Source of the DNA: Candidatus Woesebacteria bacterium
GTDB lineage: Bacteria > Patescibacteriota > Microgenomatia > UBA8517
Direction: 5' to 3'
Length of the DNA: 35,666 nucleotides
Assembly (NCBI GenBank): GCA_020061305.1
Contig: JAGUYM010000007.1
Location: forward strand, 1 to 35,666
A model generated the notes under the pieces. The model was not told where the DNA came from. It worked only from the letters and a program-made list of their open reading frames with translations, and searched no databases. This document shows positions 25,384 through 30,376 of the stretch, piece by piece. Each line of letters opens with the position of its first letter. Positions within the stretch are counted from its first letter, which is position 1. A program made the translations under genes and the position numbers.

Positions 25384-25420
25384 GTCATTGCGAGGAAGTC
25401 ATTCGCTACGCTAGCAATGA
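25384..25420. repeat. Short interspersed palindromic repeat between uppP and uvrA
   Basis: A 37-bp element starts GTCATTGCGAGG and ends CTAGCAATGA, so its ends pair (TCATTGC with GCAATGA). It resembles the outer ends of the 84-bp element inside uvrA. It occupies the space between the divergent uppP and uvrA promoters. Confidence 0.65.
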
Positions 25421-25445
25421 GAGCTTTCTTTTGTGTTATGTATGT

Positions 25446-25451
25446 TATAAT
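25446..25451 (+). promoter_or_regulatory. Putative -10 box of uvrA
   Basis: A perfect TATAAT is the only strong -10 candidate. It is 34 nt before the ATG, so uvrA would have a leader of about 28 nt, unlike its neighbours. No clear -35 is seen. Confidence 0.45.
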
Positions 25452-25458
25452 TTCTCAT

Positions 25459-25480
25459 CCGTCGGCAAACCGATGGGATT
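25459..25480 (+). promoter_or_regulatory. Terminator-like hairpin in the uvrA leader
   Basis: CCGTCGG pairs with CCGATGG (7 bp, one G-T) around CAAA. GATTTTT follows immediately. It sits between the -10 box and the ATG, so it could act as an attenuator or may simply be another inserted palindrome. Confidence 0.4.
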
Positions 25481-25485
25481 TTTAT

Positions 25486-28341
25486 ATGGATACAAATATC
25501 ATTTCAGTCAAAGGTGCGAGACAGCATAATCTCAAAAATGTATCTGTTGATATACCAAAGAATAAGCTTGTTGTATTAACAGGTGTATCAGGTAGTGGTA
25601 AAAGCTCGTTTGCTTTTGATACTTTATATGCAGAAGGCCAAAGAAGATATGTAGAAAGTTTGTCAACATATGCCAGGCAGTTTTTAGGCATCATGGAAAA
25701 ACCTGATGTTGATTCGATTACGGGTTTGTCGCCATCAATCTCAATCGATCAAAAAACAACTTCAAGAAATCCAAGATCAACAGTTGGAACAGTTACTGAA
25801 ATATATGACTATTTAAGACTACTCTACGCTCGAGTTGGTCATCCACATTGCCCTGTTTGCAATAGAGAAATTTCACAAATGTCCTTAGAACAAATTATTG
25901 ATAATGTTTTAAAACTAAAAGGCAAGTTTTATATCTTGGCACCAGTTGTTAAGGATAGAAAAGGAGAGTTTACAAGTCTATTTGATAATTTAAAATCAAA
26001 AGGATATACAAGGGTTAGAATTGACGGAATTTATAAAAATTTAAGTGATGACTTTGCACTTATTAAAACAAACAAACATACGATAGATGTTGTCGTAGAT
26101 AAGTTTGCAATACCGCAGGGTGACACCCTGCGGTCGAGACTTTTTGATTCTGTATCACAGGCATTAAATCTTGCTGGTGGGTATGTCATTTTGTCTGAAA
26201 TTAAGGATAAAGCATTTGACATTCCTGATAATCCTAAGGATTTTATTGACCATTTATATTCTGAGAAATTTTCATGCCCAATTGACAACATAAGCCTTCC
26301 TGAAATTGAACCCAGAAGCTTTTCGTTTAATTCACCTCATGGTGCTTGTCCAAGTTGCACTGGACTAGGCAAGATCTTAAAAGTAGACCCTAATTTAGTT
26401 TTTTCAAGCGAGCTTACCATCAAAGAAGGTGGAATAAGACCATTCGCTAACATGATTGAAAATGAAAGTTGGTTTGGTGGTCTAATTATAAAATTTTGTC
26501 AAAATAACGGGGTGGACATCCATAAACCGATTAAAGATTTATCTTATGACCAGATTAAAACAATTTTATATGGCGGAAAAGGATTTGAAGGGGTAGCTAA
26601 TAATTTGGAGCGAAGATACAAGGAAACTGAAAGTGAATGGTCAAGGGAAGAAATACAAAAATACATGAAGGAAATGATTTGTGAAGAATGTGGTGGTACA
26701 AGGCTTAAAAAAGAAGCCTTGTCAATAACTATTGATGGTAAAAACATATCAGAAATCTCCAAAATGTCTGTTTCAAGTTTGGTTTCATGGACTAGTCTCT
26801 TGATTCAAAATATTTTGAATGATAAAGAGGTACAAATTGGAAAACTAATAATTAAAGAGATTGAAACTAGGCTTAAATTTCTTCTTTCTGTGGGACTTGA
26901 ATATTTAACATTAGACAGGGTGGCAGGAACACTTTCAGGTGGTGAAGCACAAAGAATAAGATTGGCTTCTCAAATTGGGTCAGGTTTAACTGGAGTTTTA
27001 TATGTTTTAGATGAACCAACAATAGGTCTTCATCAAAAAGATAATCAGAAATTAATTGATACCTTAAAACACTTGAGAGATTTGGGAAATTCTGTGGTTG
27101 TTGTTGAGCATGACGAGGAAATGATGAAGCAAAGTGATTTTTTGTTAGATTTTGGACCGCAAGCAGGAAGACTGGGTGGAGAATTAGTCGCCAGTGGAAC
27201 ACCTATGCAAATCATGGATAATCCAAAATCTTTGACTGGGAAATATCTATCCGGCAAAAAGAGAATTGAAGTGAAAACGATGTCATTTCGAGAAGCATCG
27301 GCGACGAAGCAATCTAATTTCGAGATTGCTACCCGCGACACTTACGCTCGAGGTCGCAATGACAATTTAAAAATCTTTGGAGCTAGTCAGTTCAATCTTA
27401 AAAAAATAAATGTAGAATTTCCACTTGCTAAGTTAATTTGTATAACAGGAGTTTCAGGTAGTGGTAAATCAACACTTCTAGTTGAAACCCTATATCCCGC
27501 ATTACAAAGAGAATTTAATCCATTTTTCAAAGGCGAAGTTGGACAACATTTTCGTCTTGAGGGTGTTAATCTTATAGATAAGGCTATTTTAATTGATCAA
27601 TCTCCAATAGGTAGAACTCCTAGAAGTAACCCAGCAACTTATACAGGATTATTTGATCCAATTAGAGATTTGTTTGCCACAACTAAAGACGCCAAGCTAA
27701 AAGGATTTAAAAAGGGACAATTTTCATTTAATTTAAAGGGCGGAAGATGTGAAGCCTGTGAAGGACAGGGACAAACGAAAATAGAAATGCAGTTTATGCC
27801 AGATATCTGGATACCATGTGAGGTTTGTAAGGGAAAAAGATATAATTCACAAACGCTAGAGGTTACCTATAAAGACAAAAATATTTCAGAGGTTTTAGAT
27901 TTAACAATTGCAGAAAGCCTAGACTTTTTTGGTAATTTTTCAAAAATCAGGGAAAAACTTGAAACTCTTTTTGATGTAGGACTAGGTTATATGCAACTGG
28001 GACAACCTGCAACTACACTTTCAGGTGGAGAGGCCCAAAGAGTGAAATTGGCAACAGAACTTAGCAGGCGTCAAACAGGAAAAACATTTTATATTTTAGA
28101 TGAACCAACAACAGGACTTCACTTCGCGGATGTTGAAAGATTACTTAAAGTACTTAAACTTCTAGTAAATAAGGGTAATACTGTAGCAGTTATTGAGCAT
28201 AATTTGGATGTAATTAAAAACAGTGATTGGGTCATTGATTTGGGTCCAGGTGGTGGAGATAATGGTGGTGAAGTAATTGCAGTCGGAACTCCAAAGGATA
28301 TCAAAAACAACAAAAATTCAGTAACTGGAAGATATCTTTGA
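25486..28341 (+). CDS. uvrA: Excinuclease ABC subunit A
   Basis: The protein has 951 residues. Two ABC ATPase modules are present. Walker A motifs are GVSGSGKSS (about 33-41) and GVSGSGKST (about 650-658), and signature motifs are TLSGGEAQRIRLA and TLSGGEAQRVKLA. Zinc-binding cysteines are seen in CPVC, CPSC, CEECGG, CEACEG and CEVCKG. UvrA scans DNA for damage with UvrB. The ATG at 25486 is chosen because MDTNIISVKGARQHNLKN matches the family start. An upstream in-frame ATG (25417) would add residues encoded by the repeat and leader. Between the modules, about residues 599-627 are encoded by an interspersed repeat. Confidence 0.97.
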   Translation: MDTNIISVKGARQHNLKNVSVDIPKNKLVVLTGVSGSGKSSFAFDTLYAEGQRRYVESLSTYARQFLGIMEKPDVDSITGLSPSISIDQKTTSRNPRSTVGTVTEIYDYLRLLYARVGHPHCPVCNREISQMSLEQIIDNVLKLKGKFYILAPVVKDRKGEFTSLFDNLKSKGYTRVRIDGIYKNLSDDFALIKTNKHTIDVVVDKFAIPQGDTLRSRLFDSVSQALNLAGGYVILSEIKDKAFDIPDNPKDFIDHLYSEKFSCPIDNISLPEIEPRSFSFNSPHGACPSCTGLGKILKVDPNLVFSSELTIKEGGIRPFANMIENESWFGGLIIKFCQNNGVDIHKPIKDLSYDQIKTILYGGKGFEGVANNLERRYKETESEWSREEIQKYMKEMICEECGGTRLKKEALSITIDGKNISEISKMSVSSLVSWTSLLIQNILNDKEVQIGKLIIKEIETRLKFLLSVGLEYLTLDRVAGTLSGGEAQRIRLASQIGSGLTGVLYVLDEPTIGLHQKDNQKLIDTLKHLRDLGNSVVVVEHDEEMMKQSDFLLDFGPQAGRLGGELVASGTPMQIMDNPKSLTGKYLSGKKRIEVKTMSFREASATKQSNFEIATRDTYARGRNDNLKIFGASQFNLKKINVEFPLAKLICITGVSGSGKSTLLVETLYPALQREFNPFFKGEVGQHFRLEGVNLIDKAILIDQSPIGRTPRSNPATYTGLFDPIRDLFATTKDAKLKGFKKGQFSFNLKGGRCEACEGQGQTKIEMQFMPDIWIPCEVCKGKRYNSQTLEVTYKDKNISEVLDLTIAESLDFFGNFSKIREKLETLFDVGLGYMQLGQPATTLSGGEAQRVKLATELSRRQTGKTFYILDEPTTGLHFADVERLLKVLKLLVNKGNTVAVIEHNLDVIKNSDWVIDLGPGGGDNGGEVIAVGTPKDIKNNKNSVTGRYL
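26113..26133. repeat. GC-rich 21-bp palindrome in uvrA
   Basis: The arms CCGCAGGGTG and CACCCTGCGG pair perfectly around a single A. The element encodes PQGDTLR at a variable position, with no obvious net insertion compared with other UvrA proteins. Confidence 0.6.
27281..27364. repeat. 84-bp interspersed palindromic repeat in frame in uvrA
   Basis: The element starts TGTCATTTCGAG and ends GGTCGCAATGACA, so its ends are near-perfect inverted repeats. An inner 8-bp stem AGCAATCT/AGATTGCT surrounds AATTTCG. It is 28 codons long and encodes a charged linker (starting MSFREASATKQ). Similar GTCATTGCGAG elements are common in many bacterial genomes, and in-frame copies resemble the Rickettsia palindromic elements in behaviour. 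Confidence 0.75.
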
Positions 28342-29463: not shown

Positions 29464-29536
29464 CAGGTCGTGCAGGGGTATCTTAAAGAAAAAAGTCTTT
29501 AAAATATTGTTCCCCCACACGGACCTGTAATTTTTT
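29464..29536 (+). terminator. Long terminator-like stem-loop after the zinc-ribbon gene
   Basis: CAGGTC (29464-29469) pairs with GACCTG (29522-29527), then GTG with CAC, GGGG with CCCC, and an inner TTAAAGA with TCTTTAA around AAAAAG. A TTTTTT run follows at 29531-29536. The stem is about 20 bp in all, with small bulges. It is larger than needed for an ordinary terminator. Confidence 0.6.
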
Positions 29537-29540
29537 ATAA

Positions 29541-29619
29541 GCCTAGCAAATTTATTGAACATCCCAAGCAATCTTGGTTGAAACACACATTGGTGTGCTG
29601 CTCAATACCCAAACTAGGC
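29541..29619 (+). ncRNA. Candidate three-way-junction RNA, unknown
   Basis: The outer stem is GCCTAG (29541-29546) with CTAGGC (29614-29619). It continues as ATTGAACA (29554-29561) with TGCTCAAT (29599-29606), with one mismatch. Two hairpins are enclosed: CCAAG-CAAT-CTTGG (29564-29577) and CACAC-ATTG-GTGTG (29584-29597). No protein frame is convincing here. The fold is drawn by hand, and the transcribed strand is not known. Confidence 0.35.
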
Positions 29620-29669
29620 ATCCCCCTTGCAAAACAATTTCAATGAAAAAACAAAATAATTCCAAACCT

Positions 29670-29717
29670 CATGCGCGAGCGCCTTCAATCCGAAGATTGA
29701 GCCTCCAAGCCCGCATG
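29670..29717 (-). terminator. UUCG hairpin downstream of the GC-rich membrane gene
   Basis: On the reverse strand CATGCG pairs with CGCATG at the base, and TCAATC with GATTGA at the tip around a UUCG tetraloop. Some further pairing (GAG/CTC) lies between. It starts 14 nt after the gene's stop and is followed by an interrupted T-rich stretch. It is probably a terminator. It also marks the edge of the GC-rich segment. Confidence 0.5.
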
Positions 29718-29730
29718 GGTTCATTTCCCC

Positions 29731-30144
29731 TTATTGTCTTTTTTGACCCACGATGAAGGACAGACTGTTGCAGAGGTTCATAAGGCTGATGACGCCAAAG
29801 AACAATACGGCAAACTGCGCCGATACAACAAACCAGTAGTCCATGGCGATCCAGACGAACGCCGCCAAAAGGTTTGCCCCTGCAAACGCAACAGCCCATA
29901 ACACGCCATGCCATGTGAACCCGTCATTGTAGATGGCGGTAAGCACAGACAGCGGAATGAATAGGGTATGTGAAAGCAGGACCAGTGCTGTGTACATGGA
30001 CATGGTGCCGATGGCATCTTCGATGTAGAAGTCGCTCATGTATACCGCGCCGAAGGTGTTGCCGACGATGACATAGGTGTAATATGTCAGCAATCCAGCC
30101 AGGATCAAGTAGAACAATTTCAATGCTTTGATTGTATTACTCAT
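29731..30144 (-). CDS. GC-rich hypothetical 4-TM membrane protein, probably acquired
   Basis: The protein has 137 residues with four predicted helices (about 11-31, 52-71, 80-102 and 104-126). The short polar parts include YMSDFYIEDAIG and NDGFTWHG, and the C-terminus is VGQKRQ. I do not recognise the family. By hand count, 29761-29940 is about 53% G+C, and codons favour C or G at third positions, while neighbouring genes are near one third. The ATG at 30144 has a strong Shine-Dalgarno (GGAGG, 5 nt away), unlike most genes here. An open frame continues upstream but has the local AT-rich composition and contains the leader structure. Horizontal transfer is the simplest reading. Confidence 0.7.
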   Translation of the reverse strand: MSNTIKALKLFYLILAGLLTYYTYVIVGNTFGAVYMSDFYIEDAIGTMSMYTALVLLSHTLFIPLSVLTAIYNDGFTWHGVLWAVAFAGANLLAAFVWIAMDYWFVVSAQFAVLFFGVISLMNLCNSLSFIVGQKRQ

Positions 30145-30239
30145 TTCATCCTCCGATGAAAATATTTTGGGTTTGATTTTAGCCGAAGCTAGACCCATTT
30201 TAGGCACATATTGTATGCGCAAAATGGGTCCATCAAACC
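30144..30239 (-). promoter_or_regulatory. Structured leader of the GC-rich membrane gene (possible riboregulator)
   Basis: On the reverse strand GGTTTGAT (30239-30232) pairs with ATCAAACC (30177-30170), enclosing two hairpins. The long one is GACCCATTTT with AAAATGGGTC, continued by GCGCATA/TATGTGC with one mismatch. The short one is TAGC-TTCG-GCTA. Next to the start codon, TTTCATC and GATGAAA form a 7-bp hairpin whose loop is GGAG, the ribosome binding site. A TACAAT lies in the long hairpin, so a promoter within the palindrome is an alternative reading. Confidence 0.4.
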
Positions 30240-30347
30240 ACTTATTTTTGCAAGAGTTGTTAAGGTACAAGTCTAAAAACAAAAAATACTTCAAATGTCG
30301 CAATCGATATCTAAAGTATGTTTCCACTATATCACTAACTATAGGTT

Positions 30348-30376
30348 TTGTCAAGTTAAGTAGCTTCAATTACAAT
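30348..30376 (+). promoter_or_regulatory. Promoter giving a leaderless start for the transglutaminase gene
   Basis: A -35 TTGTCA (30348-30353) and a -10 TACAAT (30371-30376) are separated by exactly 17 nt. The -10 ends 6 nt before the ATG at 30383. This is the clearest leaderless promoter in the window. Confidence 0.65.

Follow-up and report, generated by a model that had tools for sequence, protein, structure and literature searches.

A 137-codon ORF of the window (the whole stretch analysed here, 35,666 nucleotides long, one contig of the 659-kb genome of a host belonging to the Microgenomates, Patescibacteria) is preceded by a structured leader: a three-way junction, followed by a hairpin that holds the ribosome binding site in its loop. 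A relative of another genus carries the same junction, with 9 of its 29 base pairs changed on both sides. The evidence inclines us, by a modest amount, towards a constitutively folded, conserved 5′ leader, which would limit translation of an accessory gene and protect its mRNA. To our knowledge, little is known of gene control in Patescibacteria, and a search of the literature on structured leaders in this group returned nothing on leaders of this kind.

Predicted fold of the leader

All features described below lie on the reverse strand unless otherwise indicated. The three-way junction (30170..30239) was detected by RNAfold, by a 120-nt scan, and through a covariance-model homologue in genome G009 (see below). 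An 8-bp closing stem (GGTTTGAT/ATCAAACC, 30239-30232 with 30177-30170) encloses a long hairpin (30230-30192), made of 10 bp (GACCCATTTT/AAAATGGGTC) and 7 bp (GCGCATA/TATGTGC), and a UUCG mini-hairpin (TAGC-UUCG-GCTA, 30191-30180). The first-pass annotation had proposed these three elements, and RNAfold returned them at the same coordinates; the single mismatch it gave to the 7-bp part is in fact a G-U wobble, and a 2-nt CU bulge is also present. The ribosome-site hairpin (TTTCATC-GGAG-GATGAAA, 30144..30161) was reproduced as it had been described, with 7 bp, a loop that is exactly GGAG, and a last paired A that is the A of the ATG start codon (30144-30142).

Folding with an energy model had been suggested as a check, and the leader (30239-30144) proved far stronger than shuffled sequences (-39.1 kcal/mol versus -20.5 +/- 3.3, z -5.7, with 0 of 200 shuffles as good). 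Among 594 windows of 120 nt covering both strands of the whole window, the leader segment ranked 2nd on the plus strand and 4th on the minus strand. The strongest fold of that scan was a 120-nt segment around a perfect 10-bp G+C-rich inverted repeat (accgcagggtgacaccctgcggt, 26112-26134) within the uvrA coding sequence, with a z of -7.9, or -4.1 in another calculation. The ribosome-site hairpin alone (22 nt) has an energy of -6.9 kcal/mol (z -4.1), and has no second match in the genome when up to 3 mismatches are allowed; a weak 22-base match, considered as a second copy, was not such a hairpin.

Two frequencies help to read these numbers. The long-plus-short three-way shape was found in 1.8% of shuffled leaders and in 8 of 303 real ribosome-site leaders; by itself it is not very rare, and is no proof alone. 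Pairing of the Shine-Dalgarno sequence is also common in these genomes, with a median pairing probability of 0.70. That of the GGAG in the window loop is 0.02, and the model has it enclosed merely by geometry and by the flanking pairs.

A homologous leader with compensatory changes

With the window leader as its only input, a covariance model was run without filters on 57.7 kb of related loci. The top match was exactly the leader of G009 (25.4 bits, E 2.1e-5; runner-up 11.3 bits); default filters make the model miss it. G009 belongs to another genus, and has at the same place and in the same orientation a 143-codon ORF, whose leader (z -8.1) adopts the same three-way fold. Compensatory changes, which had been named as the thing to look for with such a model, are indeed present: in the window/G009 alignment, whose fitting to the structure makes pair counts lean toward it (a bias that does not touch the E-value of 2.1e-5), 98% of cells are paired, all helices are kept, and 9 of 29 pairs are changed on both sides. 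Each of the three helices has some of these changes (2, 5 and 2). Shuffling 500 times gave nothing comparable, and slid partners gave 0-1. Secondary structure upstream of the ORF is conserved with compensatory changes in this one homologue. From this comparison of sequences, we conclude that the leader fold is real, because a relative in another genus shares it by matched base changes. A palindromic operator, also put forward at first, becomes unlikely, because the promoter lies ~100 bases upstream and the helices covary, by paired substitutions in G009, rather than keep a fixed sequence.

A covariance model made from both leaders matched only the window and G009 among 38 genomes. At the syntenic place in G001, the closest genome in the collection and of the same genus as the window genome, neither model finds a match, and the leader has a different structure: a long stem, at whose base UUCUCC is paired to the GGAGAG of the ribosome site. 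The window leader as such is thus known from two genomes, with one covarying homologue. Between these two, the terminal loops are unlike in both length and sequence, no conserved unpaired core is seen (n=2), and the ORFs behind them have no detectable mutual similarity. The ribosome-site loop hairpin is not common to both either: in G009, the ribosome site is enclosed differently.

Is the leader a switch?

The first-pass annotation saw two alternative stems, and from them a riboregulator of the riboswitch or thermosensor type. A conserved structured leader enclosing the ribosome site is what stands of this proposal. The two stems do not exclude each other: in the minimum free energy (MFE) structure the junction and the ribosome-site hairpin are both formed, without a base in common, and opening the hairpin is ~5.5 kcal/mol worse while the junction is unchanged, according to the energy model.

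This bears directly on a translational riboswitch, in which the junction would be the aptamer and the ribosome-site hairpin the expression platform. What is seen here, a ribosome-site hairpin behind a compact three-way junction and compensatory changes between the window and G009, is how such an element would look. Nevertheless, since no base is shared there is no built-in switch, and mutually exclusive folds linking aptamer and expression platform were not found. The difference in terminal loops also argues against it, as does the occurrence in two genomes only, whose ORFs behind the leader show no detectable similarity. Rfam contains no relative: the leader matched no family at the gathering or at a relaxed threshold; the first-pass annotation had not placed it in a known riboswitch class either. 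We regard a riboswitch as very unlikely. With no competing fold and no conserved unpaired core in two sequences, a ligand switch seems neither needed nor supported.

Even less probable is an RNA thermometer, where the ribosome-site hairpin would melt on warming. A hairpin of -6.9 kcal/mol around the Shine-Dalgarno sequence and the A of the AUG does resemble thermometer hairpins. In the energy model, on which this point depends, pairing around the ribosome site nevertheless hardly shifts from 10 to 65 °C, in the window as in the other leaders, the GGAG loop is unpaired at every temperature, and the ribosome site is not released in the physiological range. The different enclosure of the ribosome site in G009 weighs against switching of either kind.

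Ribosome-site hairpins are also classic protein operators, and CsrA is the protein that usually recognises GGA in the loop of a hairpin. The ribosome-site hairpin or the junction could accordingly be the target of an RNA-binding protein, for instance a global regulator. Another hairpin with a ribosome site in its loop, AGATC-TGGAG-GATCT, belongs to a second ORF lying after the syntenic one in G009 (L144:4046-4576, minus strand, 176 codons, without a match in Pfam), and would suit this reading. Yet CsrA was absent from the window genome and from 18 relatives (0 of 19, control genomes being positive), the product of the window ORF is a membrane protein without recognised RNA-binding domain, and the GGAG loop hairpin is missing from the homologous G009 leader. 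We hold a translational operator to be quite unlikely.

Promoter and 5′ region

A promoter, TTGACA-17-TATAGT with an extended -10 TG (30326..30354, 11/12 consensus matches), is found 180-210 bases upstream of the start codon and ~100 bases upstream of the leader hairpins; its position indicates that transcription probably starts ~175 bases upstream of the gene. Nineteen of its bases, spacer included (TTGACAAAACCTATAGTTA, 30336-30354), are identical at the same place in G009 and in G012, i.e. in three genera (another copy lies at L025:1367-1385, plus strand). Elsewhere in the 50 family genomes this sequence was found nowhere, save for one site with 2 mismatches. The equivalent place in G001 reads TTGACT-17-TATTAT. 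G012 retains the promoter without such a gene behind it, and this hints at a bound regulator or at an overlapping divergent promoter.

The predicted transcript folds into a hairpin at its 5′ end (30286..30319), and a similar one, ATATCG..CGATAT, is present in G001. Further on, CTTGCAAAA (30246..30254) can pair with TTTTGCAAG (29626-29634), and does so in the full-length MFE structures of both the window and G001, where this 9-base inverted repeat also flanks the unit; such long-range pairing is a prediction of the model. The stretch TTTAACAA(C)TCTTGCAAAAATA before the leader is common to both genomes as well.

An orphan ORF of foreign composition

The 137-codon ORF (29731..30144) is directed toward uvrA (25417-28341, plus strand), and away from a gene with a transglutaminase domain (PF01841). 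The interval between uvrA and the unit holds an AbiEii-family nucleotidyltransferase toxin gene (PF08843, 28557-29240, plus strand), of which no counterpart was seen in that interval in the stretches read of G001 and G009. The ORF has a GC3 of 0.66, compared to 0.22-0.26 for its neighbours, and the ORFs at the site in the window, G001, G009 and G036 range from 0.58 to 0.74, while ordinary genes have means of 0.27-0.36 in the three genomes where this was measured. Each of the four ORFs has several hydrophobic segments. Four membrane helices are predicted for the window ORF from a low-confidence protein model (pLDDT 57), and a structure search with this model gave no match at E below 0.001. Homologues were found neither in Pfam, NCBIfam and PHROGs, nor among phages, viral contigs and genome contigs, and plasmids gave an insignificant match only. 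The ORFs of the window and G001 align at 21% identity, which is not significant, and a profile comparison with those of G009 and G036 found nothing. A common protein family for the ORFs of the site is therefore not claimed.

3′ region and history of the site

Directly after the stop codon comes a hairpin (29665..29722) conserved in G001: 70 bases of this 3′ element are 90% identical between the two genomes, though their ORFs align so poorly. Its apical stem, TCAATC/GATTGA in the window, is GCAGTC/GACTGT in G001, with a both-sided change. The hairpin was found in no further genome of the 50 of the family, and a pattern scan of genome and viral contigs gave 42 and 4 matches, of which G001 alone has similar flanks. 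Next are a long branched hairpin B (29541..29619), with an equivalent at the same place in G001, and a long hairpin C (29464..29527), similar to one in G001. The fold of this tail has z values of -8.3 in the window and -8.2 in G001. Hairpin C is probably a terminator between convergent genes.

The unit thus consists of a promoter, a 5′-end hairpin, the junction, the ribosome-site hairpin, a membrane ORF and a structured 3′ sequence. Some relatives have similar units at this site, differing in ORF and leader; the distribution is patchy, and a search for a G+C-rich ORF of this type at the site was negative in most other relatives. The pattern at this one site would fit a history of patchy gain, loss or replacement.

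Such a history brings up a mobile or repeatedly acquired cassette, whose inverted repeats and hairpins would be recombination or transfer signals at the DNA level, with little regulatory role. The foreign codon bias in AT-rich hosts, the succession at one site of ORFs without detectable similarity, the 9-base inverted repeats and conserved 3′ hairpin that bound the unit in two species, and the promoter without a gene in G012 all fit this picture. However, no recombinase or target duplication was noticed adjoining the unit, and by eye no integron attC core (RYYYAAC/GTTRRRY) was seen after the ORF, the 3′ hairpin ending in AACCC...GGTTTGG. The unit has its own promoter, and the both-sided changes of the leader fit selection on pairing. 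We find the cassette reading as a whole unlikely.

Other structured leaders

In the syntenic leaders of G009, G001 and G036, pairing with different partners also encloses the ribosome site, in part or in full. G036 and G033 (another family) have ORFs at the site that are homologous to each other (41% over 87 residues), and leaders related in sequence; these leaders were not counted as covariation, as their hairpins are out of register in the alignment.

Strongly structured leaders were then counted in ~0.8 Mb of sampled stretches, among ORFs that have 90 codons or more and a Shine-Dalgarno sequence. A z below -3 was obtained for 8 of the 19 ORFs with a GC3 above 0.5, compared to 2 of the 170 with a GC3 at most 0.42, in a rough count where a few entries are overlapping reading frames; three of the 8 (window, G009 and G036) were known beforehand, and without them the proportion is 5 of 16. 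The GC3-rich genes include the tryptophanyl-tRNA synthetase gene of G001 (PF00579). With the membrane ORF that follows, it lies at L166:16611-18641 (plus strand); both are G+C-rich for that genome, and the leader is a long hairpin with a z of about -4 to -6.

Other individual cases were recorded. One is a 116-codon orphan ORF of G001 (L166:8519-8869, plus strand, GC3 0.60): its leader (z -7 to -10) also forms a three-way junction, whose closing stem contains the ribosome site, but the covariance model of the window leader fails to detect it, and homology is not claimed. In G009, a 58-codon DUF1508 gene (L159:17469, plus strand) has for leader one long hairpin pairing the ribosome site (z -6.1). 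A conserved leader peptide was also considered: the long hairpins of the window and G009 contain possible uORFs of 14 and 13 codons, and the leader at L166:8519 contains none.

It is possible, though we put it forward as a tentative idea, that Microgenomates carry recurring accessory gene units at fixed genomic sites, whose leaders and ORFs are exchanged and whose architecture is kept. Such a unit would consist of a promoter, a rigid structured leader that encloses the ribosome site, a small orphan membrane-protein gene with foreign codon bias, and a structured 3′ end.

Discussion

For the constitutively folded leader that we favour, the following mechanism can be proposed. In the calculated fold, the three-way junction is an independent domain and leaves a short single-stranded stretch, CAAAAUAU, beside which the second hairpin holds the Shine-Dalgarno GGAG in its 4-nt loop and pairs the A of the AUG. 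The ribosome would probably land on the unpaired stretch between the two domains, a standby site that the junction may keep open. Initiation would be limited because the ribosome must first melt a hairpin of ~7 kcal/mol before the AUG is usable, and translation of the foreign-type membrane protein would probably be restrained in this way. The rigid leader, together with the 5′-end and 3′ hairpins, may also shield the mRNA from nucleases.

A covarying leader that Rfam lacks, on a gene of foreign composition, offers a defined RNA for testing how such reduced cells handle acquired genes. The pairing of GC3-rich orphan genes with strongly structured leaders is a testable pattern beyond this single locus.

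Comparative genomics has uncovered structured mRNA leaders and riboswitch candidates (Weinberg et al. 2010, PMC2864571). Like them, the window leader lies before a gene and keeps its secondary structure through compensatory changes; it differs in being found in two genomes only, with no conserved unpaired core seen in these two sequences and no shared gene function. In RNA thermometers of the ROSE and fourU types, the hairpin includes the ribosome site, as it does here; in the window, by contrast, the GGAG is unpaired in the loop, and the model predicts no melting in range. Phage 'morons' are single genes of atypical composition inserted between host genes, with their own promoter and a terminator-like hairpin. 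The window unit lies outside a recognisable prophage, and no phage homologue was found, unlike morons, but it is likewise a lone gene of atypical composition with its own promoter and a terminator-like hairpin. Finally, translational leaders with a Shine-Dalgarno hairpin are known, in which ribosome standby or an initiation-limiting hairpin operates. In the window, what lies upstream is a conserved three-way junction, the gene is an orphan, and the effect on translation is a proposal; as in those leaders, a stable ribosome-site hairpin, an adjoining single-stranded stretch and an upstream structure are found together.
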